Assembly (NCBI GenBank): GCA_902787555.1
Contig: CADAGO010000012.1
Coordinates: 1-64,000, forward strand
From: an uncultured Bacteroidales bacterium
GTDB lineage: Bacteria > Bacteroidota > Bacteroidia > Bacteroidales > Bacteroidaceae
Length of the DNA stretch: 64,000 nucleotides
Reading direction: 5' to 3'
Part shown: positions 7,561-39,666 of the stretch, piece after piece
How the letters are laid out: the number at the start of each line of letters is the position of its first letter
How positions within the stretch are numbered: the first letter of the stretch is position 1
Translations under genes and position numbers: made by a program
Notes under the pieces: generated by a model
What the model was told of the DNA's origin: nothing
The model's input: the letters and a program-made list of their open reading frames with translations, nothing else
Databases searched by the model: none

Positions 7561-7626
7561 CAAGTATTAGTGCCGGCCGTTGCAGCTATTAAGTCCTGCG
7601 ATTTCTACTATTAATGCTCGCAATTT
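7561..7626. repeat. 22-bp periodic array, degenerate (TATTA type)
   Basis: Three consecutive 22-bp units start at 7561, 7583 and 7605. Each has C at unit position 1 and TATTA at positions 5-9 (absolute 7565, 7587, 7609). Units two and three agree at about 15 of 22 positions and both end in ATTT preceded by a GC-rich step. A fourth, poorer unit may lie just upstream. The period equals that of the palindrome arrays at 24448, 36667 and 39521. Confidence 0.5.
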
Positions 7627-7647
7627 CATCTCTTCCCTTTGACACTG

Positions 7648-7737: not shown

Positions 7738-7914
7738 TTCAGGAATTCAGAATTCAGTTTTCTCATGAGTACATGCAAACAGCAGTCAAAAATTTTACTA
7801 TATATTATATATAATATATATTATATATAATATATAGTAAATTATTTCTTTAACATTTTCTAACGTTGTATGTTATCTGTTCCCAAATAAACTGAATTTC
7901 TGAATTCTGAAAAC
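7738..7914. repeat. Inverted repeat pair enclosing an AT palindrome
   Basis: The left arm (7738-7761) carries GAATTCAGAATTCAG and the right arm (7889-7914) carries its imperfect inverse CTGAATTTCTGAATTC. Between them lies a 48-bp perfect palindrome at 7794-7841 built only from A and T apart from one C and one G near the ends. The whole unit is about 177 bp and non-coding. Confidence 0.7.
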
Positions 7915-24337: not shown

Positions 24338-24772
24338 AATAATATAACAATTGGTACAAATGCCTATATCAGCCGATATAAAAATGAGCAACTCTGAGGT
24401 GCTGCAAAATAGAGGCTATCTCTTTTTTCAGTCACCTAATAGTATTTACCCTTAAAGGAAAAAATGTTACCCCTAAGGGAAAAAATTGTTACCCTTAAGG
24501 GTAGCAAAAAAAAGCATTAGGGGGAACAAAAAAATGAACCCTTTGAAGCCACCCGATATATTCGGTCCTTTCGGTAGGTTTAGAAGAGACAGCCTCAGGG
24601 GAGACAAACTCGTGGCAAGCCGCAAAATAGATGAAGATAATGCATTTGTGCCGACTTCTATATCGTTGCGTATTTGTATATCGCAAAGTCAAAATAGAAG
24701 AATTGATGAATGGAAAGATATAAAAAAGAAAGAAAATAGCCAATAGGAAATGGCTAAATGGTAAAATATTAC
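24338..24772. other. Gene-free interval with palindrome array
   Basis: About 435 bases between the groESL terminator and the CoA-transferase promoter. It contains the ACCCTTAAGGGT array (24448-24538). A plus-strand frame of 86 codons (24486-24746) begins inside the array, has no family resemblance and is not credible as a gene. Confidence 0.7.
24448..24538. repeat. Palindrome array, 21/22-bp period (ACCCTTAAGGGT type)
   Basis: Units begin at 24448 (ACCCTTAAAGG), 24469 (ACCCCTAAGGG) and 24491 (ACCCTTAAGGGT), 21 and 22 bases apart, separated by A-rich linkers. The third is a perfect 14-bp palindrome (TACCCTTAAGGGTA, 24490-24503). A degenerate fourth unit (TTAGGGGG at 24517) keeps the 22-bp phase; a possible fifth near 24538 is three bases out of phase. 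Confidence 0.75.
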
Positions 24773-33726: not shown

Positions 33727-34303
33727 ACTTCTCGTCCAACAATGCTACCAAATTGTTTGCCAATCGTCTGACCTGCATGTGCGGGCTGTCAGCTACTGAG
33801 AGTGCCTGATCGTACAACTCATCAATCGACCGTTCCTGCAACTCATGCCTGCGCACTATGTGATAAATGGTACAGAATCCACATACCTGTCTCATCTCGT
33901 CGTCTGATGCTATTTCGCGAAACGCCATCTCTGCGGCGTAAGGAAGATACTGGAAGAGATAGAGACTGGCTATCTGTGCCATCTCAGCTGTGTGGATGTT
34001 TTCTATCCATATTTCTGCCAACTCCTCGTCGAAAGTCTCTACCGGCTGAACCATTGCCGCCAATATCTTGCACTCTCTCACAGACTCTTTCCACAGTGCT
34101 TGTGCCAAATCATGGTTCTTTCCATACTCAGCTGCCAATGCTTGAAGTCTTGGCAACTCCACTCCCCAGTTCACGCGGTAGTCAGCTGTTTGTCGCATAG
34201 CAGCCGATGCTACCCCATTCATGTTGGCGTGCAGATCCTCCTTAATTGTTGACAAGAGGGAGTGTACGGTAGTCTTTGCTGTATCTGAGCATCTGGTGGG
34301 CAT
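33716..34303 (-). CDS. AlkD-like DNA alkylation repair protein (HEAT-repeat)
   Basis: A 195-residue all-helical protein resembling the AlkD/AlkC HEAT-repeat glycosylases, which remove alkylated bases: NMNGVASAAMRQTADYRVNWGVELPRLQALAAEY followed by LAQALWKESVRECKILAAMVQP. The short length and low similarity leave activity uncertain. The ATG at 34303 overlaps the end of the DPP III gene by 62 bases; a TTG nearer the DPP III stop is possible. It is translationally linked to the Fur-like gene. Confidence 0.65.
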   Translation of the reverse strand: MPTRCSDTAKTTVHSLLSTIKEDLHANMNGVASAAMRQTADYRVNWGVELPRLQALAAEYGKNHDLAQALWKESVRECKILAAMVQPVETFDEELAEIWIENIHTAEMAQIASLYLFQYLPYAAEMAFREIASDDEMRQVCGFCTIYHIVRRHELQERSIDELYDQALSVADSPHMQVRRLANNLVALLDEKYGR

Positions 34304-36275
34304 ACGTCTCTGTATAGTCTACTGTCACATCAATGATATTTCCATCTTTATCTTTCACTAACGTATACACAGGATTAATGAATCCTTTGTAGGGCGCCAA
34401 GTCGAGCTTGTTGTAACGGCTCAGCACTTCCTTGTGCAACGCAGGGTCTATCTTCACTCCATATTGCTCAACCAATGCTTTCGCTCCCTCATAGTCGCCT
34501 GTACTCTTAATGCGCTGTATCTCAGCCAGCAACTGCCCGAAGAGTGTGCGCAACTTCTCGTAGTCGTTTATCTTGACATACGTCTTGCCATCTTTCTTCA
34601 CCAACTCTACCACCTTATCAGCCTCACCCTTCTCTAAGCACCAATGAGCAATAAGCGAACGGTTGCGCATGTGGGCTTCTTCCACATCCTTGCCCAGCTG
34701 AATACGTACCAGCTGAGTCATCAATCCATTCATCATATAGGTGTAGTACTCCGACTTATATGCATCGAGATTGGGAGTCAGACCCAAGTCTACCAGTTTC
34801 TGGTCAGCCAAGTAATAAAGGGCAAAGAGGTCGGCACGTGCTTCCTCAATGGTTGAACCGTATGCCTTCAGGCTATCACCATCGACACCAGGAAGCAACT
34901 TACCCGAACCGTGTCCGAGACATTCGTGAAGGTCGGTATGCAGGTCATCAGTCACGTCACCATATTGACCAATCAAGTCAACTTCTTCTTGTGAATAGCA
35001 GAACTCCTGACGCAAACCGCTTCCTGCAGCCTTGTTGTAGGCATGCGTAAAGTTGCCAATCGTTACCGACTTACTTCCGTGCTCCTTACGCACCCAGTCA
35101 GAATTTGGCAAGTTGATGCCGATAGCAGTCGAAGGATAGAGGTCACCACCAATGATAGCAGCAGTAATGACCTTCGCAGAGATGCCTTTAACCTTTTCCT
35201 TCTTAAACTGGGCATCGACAGGAGAATGGTCTTCAAACCATTGTGCATTCTGGCTGAGGCACTCCGTACGCTTGGTCGCCTCCAAATCCTTGAAGTTGAC
35301 AATCGACTCCCACGAACATTTCAGTCCCAATGGGTCGCCATAGCACTCGATGAATCCATTCACAAAATCCACCAGCGGCTCTGTGTTTGTAAGCCACAAA
35401 ACGCTATAATCATCAAATGCCTTCAAATCGCCTGTATTGTAGTACTCAATCAGTTTGTCAATCGTTTGCTGCTGCTGCTCGTCCTCTGCATAGGGACGTG
35501 CCTGCTGCAGACATTCGACAATCTTGGTAATTGCCGCACCATAAAGCGAGTTGGTCGTCCAGCGTTTCTCCACAATCTTTCCATCAGCACCCTTCACCAG
35601 ACGGCTATTCATTCCGAACATCACAGGATGCTCGGGGTCGGGCCAGTTGGCTTTCATGTTCTCATAAAACTTCTCTGCTTCTTCCTGCGTCACACCCTCA
35701 TAGTAGTTGCTGGCAGATGTCTGGAGCAGATCCACACCTTGAGCCAGATTCACACGTTTGCGCATCACAGAGAAATCAAACATCACCTTGCATATTTCAT
35801 CCATATCGATGGCAGCAGCCAACTCCGGAGTAGCACATTTCTCCCATTGCTGGCGGAACCACTGCTCACCAAATCCTGGTTCAAACTTATCCGAGGCATA
35901 GTGATGATGAATACCGTTCGAGAACCACACACGTTTCAGATACACCTCCATTGCCTTGAAATCCTCGCTCTCACGATCCACATCTTCCGACTGATAGATC
36001 GTTTCAAGTATTTCACGGATACGCAGGTTATACTTGCCGTTCTGGTCGTACAAGATGTCGCGACCATACATCGCAGCCTCGCTCAAGTAATAAATGAGCA
36101 ACTTCTGGTTCAAACTCAGGTTCTCAAAACCCTCTACCTTGTAACGCAACATCTGCAAATCCGCAAAACGTTCGTTAGCATACTCGAAGTTATCTTCCAC
36201 AGCTTCGTTCTTAGGCGACGTACAAGCTGTAAGCATCAACGTTGAAATAGCCACAATTTTAGTAATTCCTTTCAT
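34242..36275 (-). CDS. Dipeptidyl peptidase III (M49), lipoprotein
   Basis: A 677-residue zinc peptidase removing dipeptides from the N-termini of peptides. The M49 zinc motif HECLGH is followed by the second ligand Glu in EEARADLFALYYLADQ. The N-terminus MKGITKIVAISTLMLTAC has a lipobox (LTAC), so it is a lipoprotein, probably periplasmic or at the outer membrane. ATG 36290 would add five residues and is an alternative. First gene of the series leading to AlkD-like, Fur-like, purA and aroA; promoter box at 36318-36325. Confidence 0.92.
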   Translation of the reverse strand: MKGITKIVAISTLMLTACTSPKNEAVEDNFEYANERFADLQMLRYKVEGFENLSLNQKLLIYYLSEAAMYGRDILYDQNGKYNLRIREILETIYQSEDVDRESEDFKAMEVYLKRVWFSNGIHHHYASDKFEPGFGEQWFRQQWEKCATPELAAAIDMDEICKVMFDFSVMRKRVNLAQGVDLLQTSASNYYEGVTQEEAEKFYENMKANWPDPEHPVMFGMNSRLVKGADGKIVEKRWTTNSLYGAAITKIVECLQQARPYAEDEQQQQTIDKLIEYYNTGDLKAFDDYSVLWLTNTEPLVDFVNGFIECYGDPLGLKCSWESIVNFKDLEATKRTECLSQNAQWFEDHSPVDAQFKKEKVKGISAKVITAAIIGGDLYPSTAIGINLPNSDWVRKEHGSKSVTIGNFTHAYNKAAGSGLRQEFCYSQEEVDLIGQYGDVTDDLHTDLHECLGHGSGKLLPGVDGDSLKAYGSTIEEARADLFALYYLADQKLVDLGLTPNLDAYKSEYYTYMMNGLMTQLVRIQLGKDVEEAHMRNRSLIAHWCLEKGEADKVVELVKKDGKTYVKINDYEKLRTLFGQLLAEIQRIKSTGDYEGAKALVEQYGVKIDPALHKEVLSRYNKLDLAPYKGFINPVYTLVKDKDGNIIDVTVDYTETYAHQMLRYSKDYRTLPLVNN

Positions 36276-36317
36276 ATAGTTAACCTTCATTTTATCCCTG
36301 TATTTCCTTTGCGTCTG

Positions 36318-36325
36318 CAAAAATA
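36318..36325 (-). promoter_or_regulatory. DPP III promoter, -7 box
   Basis: TATTTTTG followed by CAGA on the minus strand fits TAnnTTTG, about 30-45 bases before the start codon. Confidence 0.6.
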
Positions 36326-36493
36326 ACACAAATAAAGCGAAGCACCAAATTTATTAGGGAGAATCGAACACATCGCCCTGTACTTTCTCAAATCTTACGT
36401 ATCTTTGATACGTCAGCCTTGCAAAATAACGGAAGTCATAAGAGGTAAGAGAAGCCCGCTGCCCTACGGACATCTCCCCCTCTATGGGGAGAG

Positions 36494-36927
36494 GATAATG
36501 GTTATAGGTTATGGGTTAATGGTTATTGAGTTTTTAGCTTAATGGCTTAGTAATCTAAAGTCTAACAGCTAACGTCCATAAGCAAAGCTCGTTAACTTCA
36601 TGCGAAGCATATAACTACCGAGACTATATGCCGATAACTTCTTAAACAGGCAGTAGCAACCTTTTTATTCCCAGCGTGGGAACGCTTCATTCCCACCTTG
36701 GGAACATCTCATTCCCAGCGTGGGAACAAACTCTCATCTGCCTATCGTCTTTGCTACATTATTATAACCACAAGTGGTACCAACCTTTCAGCCAGCACCA
36801 CTTGCTTGTATATTGTTTTTATCCATAAGTCCTTCCAAGTTCCCTCCCTCGGGAGGGTTAGTGTGGGTGCTTTTATCCTTAACTATTAACCTCAATAACC
36901 AATAACCAATAACCGATAACCATTACC
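36494..36927. repeat. Inverted-repeat-bounded non-coding element (MITE-like candidate)
   Basis: The left 37 bases (36494-36530) match the reverse complement of the right 37 (36891-36927) at 33 positions; both are built of GGTTATT-like units. The 434-bp interior has no gene but contains the 22-bp palindrome array and an 8-bp hairpin. Each boundary has a G/C palindrome close by. No obvious target-site duplication was found by eye. Confidence 0.55.
36667..36727. repeat. Palindrome array, exact 22-bp period (TTCCCA-N3-TGGGAA type)
   Basis: Three units begin with ATTCCCA at 36667, 36689 and 36711, exactly 22 bases apart. Each has a 15-bp palindrome (arms TTCCCA and TGGGAA around GCG, CCT, GCG) and a non-conserved 7-base linker. 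Arms are identical in all three units while linkers differ. Confidence 0.9.
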
Positions 36928-36940
36928 CCCTACTAAGCCA

Positions 36941-38041
36941 TTATCTCACCATGATCTTCTTCCCATCCACGATATTCAATCCCTTCTGCAACCCATTGAT
37001 GCGCTGACCGTTTAGGTCATAAAGAGAATGTGGATATTTGGCGGTATCTTGCAGGGTGTTGATAGATGTAGCAACACAAACAACGGAGGCCAGTTTCTGT
37101 CCACCTGCCATGATGGTATATTCGCCTGGCAGGAACCCTGGAATCTTAATCTCATACTCCCAGAGGCCACGGTCAGGAATGACGTCATATCCATATAAGA
37201 GGAGTGGATAGGTAGAAAGTTCAACGATGTTGTCATGGATAAAACAAGATGTAATGAAACGATAGCCCCCCATTACTTCACAGCCACTGATAACCAAAGT
37301 ATCGCCAGAGAATGAATAGTTGCGATATTTAGGTTGTTCAGGGTCTAATCCACCAAACGGAACTGATTGTGTGGATTTGTAGTGTGGCGTGTTTTGAGCG
37401 AAGAATGCTGCCCAACAATTACCCATATCGCAAAAATCCAAAGAGCAGTCTTCTGCATTCGAAATGAATTCTGGCGGTAGAATGCCAGTGTGTAACGACC
37501 CCACTCCCTCTATCCATACGTCTTCAATAGCGGCATTGTCGCAATCTCTTAGAAGCAGCTTCTTTTCTGGATAGTCATTCCAATTAAACATTACGTCCTC
37601 ATTTTCCTGATAGTCCCACAAAAGCCAATCATACATATATTCCTTGCAGTCGCTTACGCCTACTACTTCCATCTGTTTCCCTTGAGATGTAGTGAAGACA
37701 TCGCCTGTTTCGAGCGAAAAGTCGAACATCAGCACATCTGTCTGTCGGGTCTCGTCATAGCGGTAAATCCTTTTGCCGTCCTGACGATAGAGCAAGGTCC
37801 GTGGCATTTCAGTGCAGTAGGAAGGAACGGCGGACAGCTCATAAACACAATAATTCTTGCCGTCCTTCTCTATCGTATTTCTTGTTGAATATGCCATGAA
37901 GAATGCATCCGATTGTGTTGCCGCCCCTGTATAGATGTGATAAACCCGATAGACAGTTACGTCTAATACATCCACTGCCTGCACGTTCATTGTCATGAAC
38001 ATCAGCAAGCACGAAATGATAATAATACTTTTCTTTCCCAT
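36941..38041 (-). CDS. Secreted protein with type IX tail, unknown function (paralogue 1)
   Basis: A 366-residue protein with a signal peptide (IIIISCLLMFMTMNVQA) and the C-terminal sorting segment LYDLNGQRINGLQKGLNIV ending in KKIMVR. The middle resembles the neighbouring product (38125-39009): both have a sentence-like core of YDFSLETGD/YDFNMEVGD, a Gly-rich IEGVGSLHTG/IEGIGCINSPG turn and aromatic strands, so the two are paralogues. No enzyme motif is recognised. Expected to be exported and surface-attached or released. Confidence 0.8.
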   Translation of the reverse strand: MGKKSIIIISCLLMFMTMNVQAVDVLDVTVYRVYHIYTGAATQSDAFFMAYSTRNTIEKDGKNYCVYELSAVPSYCTEMPRTLLYRQDGKRIYRYDETRQTDVLMFDFSLETGDVFTTSQGKQMEVVGVSDCKEYMYDWLLWDYQENEDVMFNWNDYPEKKLLLRDCDNAAIEDVWIEGVGSLHTGILPPEFISNAEDCSLDFCDMGNCWAAFFAQNTPHYKSTQSVPFGGLDPEQPKYRNYSFSGDTLVISGCEVMGGYRFITSCFIHDNIVELSTYPLLLYGYDVIPDRGLWEYEIKIPGFLPGEYTIMAGGQKLASVVCVATSINTLQDTAKYPHSLYDLNGQRINGLQKGLNIVDGKKIMVR

Positions 38042-38124
38042 TTCTTTAAATATTGTTTGTTTCTACTTTTATGTCTTGCCTATTGTCCTGTATTGATTCC
38101 CTTAACATCTCATTTCTGTCTCTA

Positions 38125-39009
38125 TCACTTGACCATGATTTTCTTTCCATCCACGATATTCAGTCCTTTCTGCAACCTATTGATGCGCTGACCTTGCAGG
38201 TTGAATATTGCTCTTTCTTTTTTTAATTTTTCAATTTTTACATTTTCCTCAATTCCCACAGTTCTATCTGCTATCAGTGGATTAGTGTATTCGTATATGG
38301 GAGATGCTGACCACCAATCACCATACTCATTCACATTATCAACATATAATGCTAAATCGCAAATCCAATGCTTGACATTCGGTGATGGATTAAGATAGTC
38401 GAAAAGCATGCCCGGTGAGTTGATGCAGCCGATACCTTCAATCAGCACCAGCCCATTATTGAGTATAAGCCTTTTATGCTTTCCGTCAGTCAGACTAATA
38501 CTGTCTGTTGCTGTTACATAAACATCATCATACCCATCAACATGTCGATACCTGTCACCAACTTCCATATTGAAATCATAGAGGATAATCTCGCTGTCAT
38601 CTGTTTGATGGTATGGAATGTACGAAGGGTCACCAAAACATAACCCACCTGAAAGATAATTCATGTAATCCTGATAGTTTGCAAGGATTCTGCCATTATC
38701 ATAGCGGATAGCCAAATGATAGTAAATGGTATTCTTCCTGGCACTTCTCCTTGATTTGGTTGTTGGTATAGCTTCTCGTTCTATTTCAATTGCAGTATAT
38801 TCCTTTCTTTCGATTTCTATTGTACCTTTGCTTTGATATATAAAGTAAGAACCACGACCATAAATCGAATCTCCCTTGATGGTCCATCGGTCTAAAAAAT
38901 CATATTTCCATACAGGTCTTTTCTGCTGGGCAGAGTTGCTAATGGGAAGAAAGACAAATACTAAGCTAAGGAATGCCTTACAAATGAGTTTAAAATGTTT
39001 CGCTTTCAT
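38125..39009 (-). CDS. Secreted protein with type IX tail, unknown function (paralogue 2)
   Basis: A 294-residue protein; start MKAKHFKLICKAFLSLVFV gives a good signal peptide, and a longer frame to 39111 would translate the promoter at 39046. The middle shows the YDFNMEVGDRY and LIEGIGCINSPG elements shared with the downstream gene. The C-terminus IFNLQGQRINRLQKGLNIV...KKIMVK is a type IX sorting tail. The two tails are also very similar at the DNA level (about 85 percent by eye). Function unknown. Confidence 0.8.
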   Translation of the reverse strand: MKAKHFKLICKAFLSLVFVFLPISNSAQQKRPVWKYDFLDRWTIKGDSIYGRGSYFIYQSKGTIEIERKEYTAIEIEREAIPTTKSRRSARKNTIYYHLAIRYDNGRILANYQDYMNYLSGGLCFGDPSYIPYHQTDDSEIILYDFNMEVGDRYRHVDGYDDVYVTATDSISLTDGKHKRLILNNGLVLIEGIGCINSPGMLFDYLNPSPNVKHWICDLALYVDNVNEYGDWWSASPIYEYTNPLIADRTVGIEENVKIEKLKKERAIFNLQGQRINRLQKGLNIVDGKKIMVK

Positions 39010-39185: not shown

Positions 39186-39666
39186 CGTAAAAAAATTGAA
39201 TATTTTTTTTGACGTAATCATATAGTATTTGGCGTAAATGAATCATCTATCTTGCAGCACTCCTGACTTGAACGCTAAGACCTTCTGAATGACCACAGCC
39301 CTGATAGGGGCGAATTATTGTTATATTATTCCGCCCCGTCAAGACTAGAATATAATCTGTGCACAACAAACGGGGGCTTATACCCCGGCTAAATCCGGAT
39401 CACTAGTTGAAACCTGTGTCTTTGGTAATAAAAAACCAACTTTCGCTGGAGTTGAGAAAAGAAGTAAAAATGGAAGTAGAATAGGGAGTAAAGTCATGCA
39501 ATTGATACTGTCAGAAATATGAATCGATTCAATTGATGAGTTGAATCGATTCGATCGAACGAACGAATCGATTCAAATTTTGAACACCTATATCTAAAAG
39601 TTTAGAGTTGGGTGTGTAGAGTGTAGAGAAATACAAGATGTATTTGTTATAATGACCGAATTGGGA
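39186..39666. other. Gene-free interval with hairpins and palindrome array
   Basis: About 480 bases with no gene. Contents: GGGGCG/CGCCCC hairpin (39307-39337), CGGGG/CCCCG hairpin (39371-39387), the GAATCGATTC array (39521-39574) and a TTTAGAGTTGGGTG-type low-complexity stretch (39599-39628) that recurs between other genes. Confidence 0.7.
39521..39574. repeat. Palindrome array, exact 22-bp period (GAATCGATTC type)
   Basis: The perfect 10-bp palindrome GAATCGATTC occurs at 39521, 39543 and 39565, exactly 22 bases apart, with unrelated 12-base linkers. It lies about 90 bases downstream of the DUF5107 stop. Confidence 0.9.

Follow-up and report, generated by a model that had tools for sequence, protein, structure and literature searches.

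Arrays of short palindromes with a 22-bp step in Prevotella and close relatives, possible sites of small mobile cassettes

Closest described systems

Iteron-type origins of plasmids and phage satellites are built of tandem repeats of about two helical turns beside a replication-type gene, and usually there is one set of them per replicon. The arrays of short palindromes that we describe here share with them the two-turn tandem repeats, which in 12 of 119 loci lie near a gene of replication type, and some of their loci carry extra repeats of 11-12 bp. They differ from iterons in that dozens of solo copies can be present in one genome and in that each unit is a palindrome, and no independent replicon was seen.

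BrickBuilt of Porphyromonas gingivalis is a MITE with an internal 23-nt minisatellite and has 19 copies in strain ATCC 33277 (PMC4596501). Like our arrays it belongs to the Bacteroidales, is dispersed and has short tandem repeats with a period near 22; its conserved 'leader' and 'tail' flanks resemble those of the GAATCGATTC family described below, and neither has an internal transposase (PMC4596501). BrickBuilt has 1 to 22.8 direct 23-nt repeats and terminal inverted repeats like those of the IS5 family, is always intergenic and forms a single sequence family (PMC4596501), whereas the arrays here mostly have three palindromic units at 22 bp, come with many cores, also lie in genes and show no terminal repeats that we recognised. 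The Rickettsia palindromic elements (RPE) sit in frame in unrelated protein genes, as do some of our arrays, but by published description they measure about 150 bp against about 60 bp for an array, and our arrays are built of spaced units and lie mainly between genes (PMC10969869, PMC3733652). REP sequences and BIMEs have regularly spaced palindromic units that are mostly extragenic and in which compensatory changes keep the palindrome, all of which applies to our arrays too; the orientation of REPs in BIMEs however alternates, and they are linked to a Y1 transposase (PMC2817692, PMC3733652), while the arrays have one polarity and a 22-bp step, and Y1_Tnp is missing from several array-rich draft genomes. 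CRISPR direct repeats are 24-48 bp long with unique spacers of regular size (PMC3733652), a feature that is absent from arrays with 15-bp units and 7-bp A/T-rich linkers.

In the literature that our search covered, most subscription journals and preprints lying outside it, we found no description of three-unit palindromic arrays at 22 bp in Prevotella. Some of the tested features of RPE and of the REP/BIME-RAYT system are lacking in the arrays, which are best called a new variant among the small dispersed palindromic repeats.

The arrays of the window and their families

By the window we mean the whole stretch of 64,000 nucleotides that was analysed. It lies on contig C12 of a 2.69 Mb draft genome that is 82% complete (G000). 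The features needed here are the following (no strand is assigned to the palindromic arrays themselves).

34242-36329, minus strand: 695-aa ORF next to the main array at lower coordinates, start toward the array
36668-36726, no strand: main array of three TTCCCA-N3-TGGGAA units (36668-36682, 36690-36704 and 36712-36726; steps 22 and 22)
36683-36711, no strand: middle unit with both 7-bp linkers around it (CGCTTCA 36683-36689; CATCTCA 36705-36711)
36941-38041, minus strand: 366-aa ORF next to the main array at higher coordinates, stop toward the array
39497-39609, plus strand: approximate extent of the dispersed element around the second array, the part common to most unlinked copies
39521-39574, no strand: second-family array of three GAATCGATTC units (39521-39530, 39543-39552 and 39565-39574; steps 22 and 22)
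24446-24501, no strand: degenerate array of TTACCCTTAAGG-like units (approximate centres 24453.5, 24475 and 24496.5)

The main array is placed between two tandem genes (34242-36329 and 36941-38041, both minus) and its units read, in order, TTCCCAGCGTGGGAA, TTCCCACCTTGGGAA and TTCCCAGCGTGGGAA, with the loops GCG, CCT and GCG. The first-pass annotation had claimed three TTCCCA-N3-TGGGAA palindromes at exactly 22 bp, which the coordinates bear out, and shuffled sequence gave no match: the two-unit TTCCCA pattern with up to two mismatches had an expectation of 0.00 in 100 shuffles of the window. It had also called the linkers unrelated, and this we had to revise, as the linkers of the main array fit the family linker Y-R-W-W-W-Y-R and the linkers of one array resemble each other beyond expectation. 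When we searched blind for sets of three equal-arm palindromes with a step of 19-25 bp, the window returned only those at 36668 and 39520, and 30 shuffles returned nothing; with unequal arms permitted there was one extra, chance-like set in the window and a total of four in 20 shuffles. Arms of 4 bp without mismatch still gave only the main array and 39520-39574, and with one mismatch low-complexity or weak sets at 7815 and 57753 were added (none in 20 shuffles). At the main array Rfam had no match at gathering score, and positions 36600-36790 had none among plasmids and E. coli genomes. A local amplification unique to 36667 was considered and rejected, since the same core recurs in its own genome and across the genome collection. 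Further dispersed sequences with many matches across the genus lie at 36446-36493 and at about 38118-38257.

Three companion loci had been proposed as well. The one at 39521 was confirmed as three GAATCGATTC units with steps of 22 and 22. At 24448 the layout stood in degenerate form, as a period-21 tandem repeat with approximate palindromes at 24446-24501, and was not picked up by strict array detectors. The one at 7561 dissolved into a 1.9-copy 22-bp repeat at 7586-7627 with weak symmetry (at most 6 of 9 pairs); in the gap near it, at 7799-7836, is a TATATATTA-like tandem repeat with a 16-bp period.

The genome of the window holds 11 forward-strand TTCCCA-N3-TGGGAA cores against one for the reversed control pattern. 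Arrays of three units are found on C12 and C19 and a pair of units on C18; C2, C7 and C38 have lone perfect units with imperfect neighbours. A relaxed detector run over 400 kb of this genome found 11 arrays with about five cores, and none in three shuffles. A scan of genome_contigs for three TTCCCA units returned at least 119 stretches, and among the 80 matches listed the titles name Prevotella, Xylanibacter, Prevotellaceae or Bacteroidaceae, many of them from rumen. The two-unit TTCCCA pattern is rare at family level (5 of 301 sampled genomes) and occurs in 3 of 17 genomes of the window's own genus; over 25 genomes, picked mostly for arrays or related matches, the count ranges from 0 to 83, with 23 matching and the richest at 83, 77, 59 and 54. 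Nothing of the kind was found in 50 kb of E. coli. TTCCCA arrays are also present in five stretches of viral_contigs. The related phage contigs L368, L369, L371 and L372 have one conserved three-unit TTCCCA array in common; in L369 (5514-5765, minus strand) the array is an in-frame part of a small ORF whose C-terminus is hydrophobic, and L370 has an array immediately before a small ORF akin to it.

The GAATCGATTC family is represented in G000 by 32 two-unit matches, equal to 16 three-unit arrays, and in G004 by 14, equal to 7 arrays; the other 15 of 17 congeners searched, many of them incomplete drafts, had none, and neither had viral_contigs. Nineteen oriented copies have related framing sequence, commonly TTATACTGTCAGAAATTT before and AAGTTTTGAACACCTATATTTAAAAGTTTAGAG after, and some copies in G004 have a second flank type. 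The likeness mostly reaches from about 24 nt ahead of the array to about 40 nt beyond it, with longer common flanks in some pairs, so the family shares with MITEs that it is a small, dispersed, non-autonomous repeat with unlike flanks; neither terminal inverted repeats nor a target-site duplication were recognised by eye in the 19 aligned copies. Of 23 copies, 10 are tandem, 7 convergent, 1 divergent and 5 at edges, and tblastn found no VapE-like gene (see below) beside them or in the window.

Several sequence families have the same layout, and their copies are dispersed with unlike flanks. The earlier claim of different core sequences in one 22-bp layout is borne out by this, but its wording as a general rule, that the core is kept within an array and not between arrays, is not, as each of the two good arrays in the window belongs to a genome-wide family that has a single core. 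As part of the best explanation taken as a whole, which we advance tentatively, the array of the window may be a single copy of a small element that is dispersed in Prevotella and its close relatives.

Spacing, growth and placement

The 119 TTCCCA loci were picked by perfect arms and 22-bp steps and are uninformative on the constraint of either. They do describe the rest of the unit: the consensus is YR-TTCCCA-NSN-TGGGAA-YR followed by three A/T bases, the linker of the family being 7 bp long, A/T-rich and of the form Y-R-W-W-W-Y-R, and there are three units in 98 arrays, four in 16, five in 5 and six in 1. The spacing itself was followed with a scan over periods 14-40 for at least three units with identical perfect 5-bp arms, low-complexity rows being filtered out. 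At a period of 22 it found seven arrays in G000 (464 kb with the window), one each in G413 and G314, three in G347, G363 and G377 taken together and six in G322; at 21 there was one, in G322, and at every other period none. In 194 kb of two genomes from other genera the scan found no arrays. These counts are to be read with the choice of stretches in mind: those of G000 and G322 were partly chosen on contigs with array matches, L196, L203 and L210 were chosen for cobB matches and L209 for a match to the array peptide, and those of G413 and G314 were distributed over the length of the chromosome, except that one stretch of G413 was set on cobB. The one-contig complete genome G413, sampled over 400 kb with one arm mismatch, gave four arrays with four cores and lengths that fit 22-bp steps. 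TTCCCA cores no more than 100 bp apart, in stretches selected independently of spacing, were 22 bp apart in 7 of 7 cases, and of the 29 spacings in longer arrays that were left free by the search pattern, 27 were 22 and two were 21. The first-pass annotation had asked for a comparison with shuffled sequence, and shuffled controls of the sampled stretches do not refute it: equal-arm arrays were absent from four shuffle sets, and one was found in two shuffles of 928 kb. Exactly 22 bp beyond the arrays there is a weak symmetric signal (mean 3.34 of 10 pairs against about 2.5), and at 44 bp there is none. A family with another step, AATAAG-N7-CTTATT with period 21, adjoins TTCCCA arrays within about 100 bp in four loci:

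L039, 530-587: AATAAG-N7-CTTATT array, 21-bp step
L083, 604-662: AATAAG-N7-CTTATT array, 21-bp step
L103, 2114-2170: AATAAG-N7-CTTATT array, 21-bp step
L266, 9127-9185: AATAAG-N7-CTTATT array, 21-bp step

Within TTCCCA arrays the loops of 448 unit pairs were identical in 115 and reverse-complementary in 36, and linkers 1 and 2 agreed at 4.47 of 7 positions, where shuffled partners gave 3.25. Because loops are often identical and linkers directly alike, the arrays look like head-to-tail duplications of one unit, and the suggested local amplification, taken as a tandem process, fits this polarity. The same likeness of loops in polarity, and of linkers, within an array would follow if the arrays were neutral, functionless repeats kept alike by slippage and hairpin-templated repair. 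Such homogenisation should however level loops and linkers as well, and in cobB only the arms are identical between species; it also gives no reason for a single 22-bp ruler over unrelated cores, and we regard it as highly improbable.

Placement was judged on ORF predictions made in this analysis. At 43 collapsed intergenic sites, 35% were convergent, 51% tandem and 14% divergent, compared with 14.6%, 60.8% and 24.6% of the intergenic bases of the same loci. The tandem sites were closer to the upstream stop in 17 of 22 cases. A stop codon was no more than 40 nt away at 19 of the 43 sites, and a start at 3 of them. Clustering behind genes and at convergent ends, together with the A/T-rich linkers, is what one would expect of RNA elements, in which the units as hairpins, or the array as one long mRNA hairpin, act as a bidirectional terminator or stabiliser of the 3' end. 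All eight array strands that we folded beat their shuffles (z -2.45 to -7.43), but these scores do not discriminate because any palindromic array folds well. The linkers are complementary at 2.41 of 7 positions where 3.16 are expected, and with complementarity below expectation the one long hairpin, which requires it of linkers and loops, is rejected. Several families (GAATCGATTC, GCCTATAGGC and ATACGTAT) are even, loopless palindromes and would make poor single hairpins, and arrays also lie inside genes and 5' of VapE-like genes, so that a role in RNA seems quite unlikely to us.

Arrays inside genes and a candidate partner gene

Inside predicted ORFs we found 22 of 120 arrays, or 7 of 60 once similar sites were collapsed, with 21 of the 120, at locus edges, left unclassed. 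Arrays of this kind are not confined to intergenic DNA. In two cases (L043 and L126) the array comes ahead of a signal-peptide-like stretch, and it may there belong to upstream DNA that the ORF prediction took in. Pfam names 7 of 8 array-bearing proteins, namely an acyltransferase, GH92, CobB, GH106, a THUMP-like protein, an ABC transporter, which we take to be ABC-F-like, and OEP; the array-bearing phage ORF had no Pfam match.

In CobB the array encodes a peptide at about residues 218-238, between the CbiA match (6-182) and the GATase_3 match (263-416), and in the protein model the pLDDT is below 50 at 223-233. The orthologues were gathered by protein search and not by way of the array. Between the query (L081) and three orthologues with TTCCCA arrays, the arms differ at 0 of 36 positions in all six pairs, while differences are found at 1-9 of 9 loop positions and at 4-12 of 14 linker positions, and in the coding flanks they number 2-21 over 48 nt and 12-21 over 60 nt; a further TTCCCA-type orthologue with degenerate arms (L144) was excluded from the arm comparison. 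Arms and spacing are fixed between the compared species, and loops, linkers and flanks drift, even inside a gene. Since the 22-bp units run through all three reading frames, the constraint on the arms acts on the DNA rather than on the protein. The unchanged arms are consistent with the earlier reading of the units as binding sites; the co-evolution that had been added to it was not significant when sought as a genome-specific likeness of loops (0.228 against 0.178, with 64 of 1000 label shuffles as high).

By inspection, 34 loci with both parts of cobB include seven with TTCCCA arrays, four of these from the pattern scan, one with a degenerate array (L144), five with clear 22-bp arrays of other cores, five with looser ones and 16 without any array. 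The arrays with other cores are:

L147: GTTTC-7-GAAAC, 22-bp step
L152: AGTCCG-7-CGGACT, 22-bp step
L165: GTCCG-7-CGGAC, 22-bp step
L146: GTTTA-7-TAAAC, 22-bp step
L170: ACGAG-7-CTCGT, 22-bp step
L145, L150, L154, L155 and L160: looser 22-bp arrays

In L319 to L324 there is no array, and because a stop sits in the junction (gap 14 or 17 nt) cobB is split into two frames. L115, with an array, and L319, without, are sisters in the cobB tree (support 99/95, the bootstrap being unsettled and much of the tree unresolved), and their junctions differ by 73 nt. The cobB junction is a case of gene fission/fusion at one site. The gene is in two frames in several species of the Prevotella group (L319-L325, L331) and in one frame by way of a linker, often with an array, in others; the CobB linker also hosts unrelated repeats, GGGCGGGTC...GCCCGCCC, GGACGCGATACATCGC and a CTTCACT microsatellite (L326, L329 and L335). 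The acyltransferase loop was inspected in 14 pieces gathered by protein search: L355 carries a TTCCCA array, L354 an array whose arms are a mixture of TTCCCA and GTCCCA, L356 and L359 have 22-bp arrays of other kinds, and ten pieces have none. Array-free relatives are not clean empty sites, the tolC loop being about 4 aa and the acyltransferase loops 0-33 nt shorter, and arrays in genes may therefore have replaced older linkers.

When 698 ORFs from the 119 loci were clustered, the largest group was a gene found in 11 loci with unlike surroundings. All five of its members that were scanned have the Pfam domain VapE-like_dom (PF05272), and the long form has BT4734-like_N as well; the VirE domain PF05272 has been described as a predicted helicase found in mobile elements, and BT4734-like as one of their primase families (PMC5862659). 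With two queries, VapE-like matches were found in 12 of the 119 loci, with the array 5' of the gene in 12 of 12, 189-524 nt away, and no such gene was found near the array in the other 107 or in the window; the loci were selected by the array, so these counts describe arrays and not VapE-like genes at large. A chance product of 3.6e-10 for 11 loci within 524 nt assumes independence, which these loci, with four gene-side groups, do not have: the DNA of 13 gene-linked arrays falls into four groups on the gene side and ten on the far side. G322 has three VapE-like matches, two in this same layout (L267 and L268), the third (L273, 31% identity) being without any array. L217 of G000 (26% identity) is also without one. 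L198 of G363 lacks a TTCCCA array and shows, by eye, an upstream 22-bp repeat with GTTTG/TAAAC arms, akin to the cobB core of that genome and repeating at 22 in 32 of 44 positions. The stretches of G413 and G314 had no VapE-like match, viral_contigs held no relatives, and those on plasmids (94 records) were below 60% identity. In L033, L034, L059, L065, L070 and also L040 the VapE-like gene is joined by a DUF6078 gene (Pfam match on L033), which may stand on one side of the array or the other.

L059 and L065 have in common a stretch of 2314 nt with 94.8% identity that begins within the array, takes in VapE and DUF6078 and ends shortly after a terminator-like hairpin; beyond both ends their DNA is unlike. 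In the pair L065 and L074 the flanks match to either side of the array. The array is the breakpoint in L059/L065, where a 2.3-kb stretch of array and genes sits in unrelated surroundings; movement of a cassette may have made it, and recombination between arrays could also yield such a breakpoint. The VapE-like gene is the best candidate so far for a partner of the arrays.

Between array and VapE-like gene there is a promoter-like TAnnTTTG in 11 of 13 cases, and some of the intervals have ACCTAAC or TAGTAGA repeats with steps of 11-12 or 22 nt. This position 189-524 nt 5' of the gene, the unchanged arms and spacing, and the degenerate R/Y positions with a C/G centre, as in binding sites, could all be explained if the arrays were operators of a regulator or of a nucleoid protein, kept by point selection and not by mobility, those before VapE-like genes controlling that gene. 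Elsewhere the sites avoid gene starts, with the 3 of 43 given above, and the conserved flanks of the GAATCGATTC copies indicate copying and not convergence; we find operators unlikely.

Mobilisation as REP/BIME elements by a REP-associated tyrosine transposase (RAYT, Y1_Tnp) would account for palindromic units in regular, mostly intergenic arrays, and in two sets of array-bearing genomes Y1_Tnp was present in 12 of 15 and in 10 of 16 (G377 and G429 look like one genome that enters both sets). It was however not found in the window's genome nor in G416, G418, G420, G421, G425, G427, G012 and G318, all drafts in which an absence is not absolute, and G416, G418 and G420 are three of the four richest among the 25 genomes (54, 83 and 77 matches). 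With units that are of one polarity in the TTCCCA family and do not alternate, we hold this to be improbable.

A proposed mechanism and what it would mean

The explanation that we prefer, tentatively and with our belief in it falling a little short of our doubt, is that the arrays act in cis, in the manner of iterons, as sites where small mobile cassettes are bound by dimers, and that solo copies are non-autonomous. Unchanged arms, drifting loops and linkers, even palindromes without a loop and one two-turn ruler for unrelated cores point, as far as sequences can tell, to protein dimers on one face of the DNA, and unlike flanks, uneven copy number, presence and absence, and the L059/L065 breakpoint likewise point to an element that would be mobile or recently so. 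Each unit would bind a protein dimer; as 22 bp is about two helical turns, three dimers would align on one face and bind cooperatively, and in our proposal it is because of this that the spacing is fixed. The arrays would be the cis-acting sites of small cassettes with the VapE-like gene or another machine, and they would grow by tandem duplication of one unit. Because most arrays have no VapE-like gene nearby, the solo arrays must be non-autonomous, remnants or otherwise employed; those like the array of the window may be non-autonomous copies or remnants. Copies would persist for the most part downstream of genes, and in protein linkers that tolerate them as long as the reading frame remains open. 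In the material examined we found no target-site duplication, clean empty site, transposase or binder.

A wider hypothesis, which we consider somewhat unlikely as it stands, is that Prevotella has a class of mobile systems with a fixed geometry, three palindromic dimer sites two turns apart, and a sequence specificity that has diversified into many families. The array would be both the iteron-like cis site and the edge of VapE-type primase-helicase cassettes, solo arrays would have spread from it, and successive families would have colonised permissive sites, including the CobB linker, where they would have joined the frames that are separate in sister species.

If this is right, a common genus of gut and rumen carries a class of tiny elements that is defined by geometry and not by sequence, and that repeat annotation misses because every family has another sequence. 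It would be a natural experiment on how a DNA-binding protein and its dozens of sites change specificity, and offer others on how a 22-bp ruler is enforced and on how selfish DNA is turned into a protein linker or a fuser of frames. A gene type of the VapE/BT4734 kind, poor in known function but widespread, would at the same time be linked to a defined and testable DNA site.
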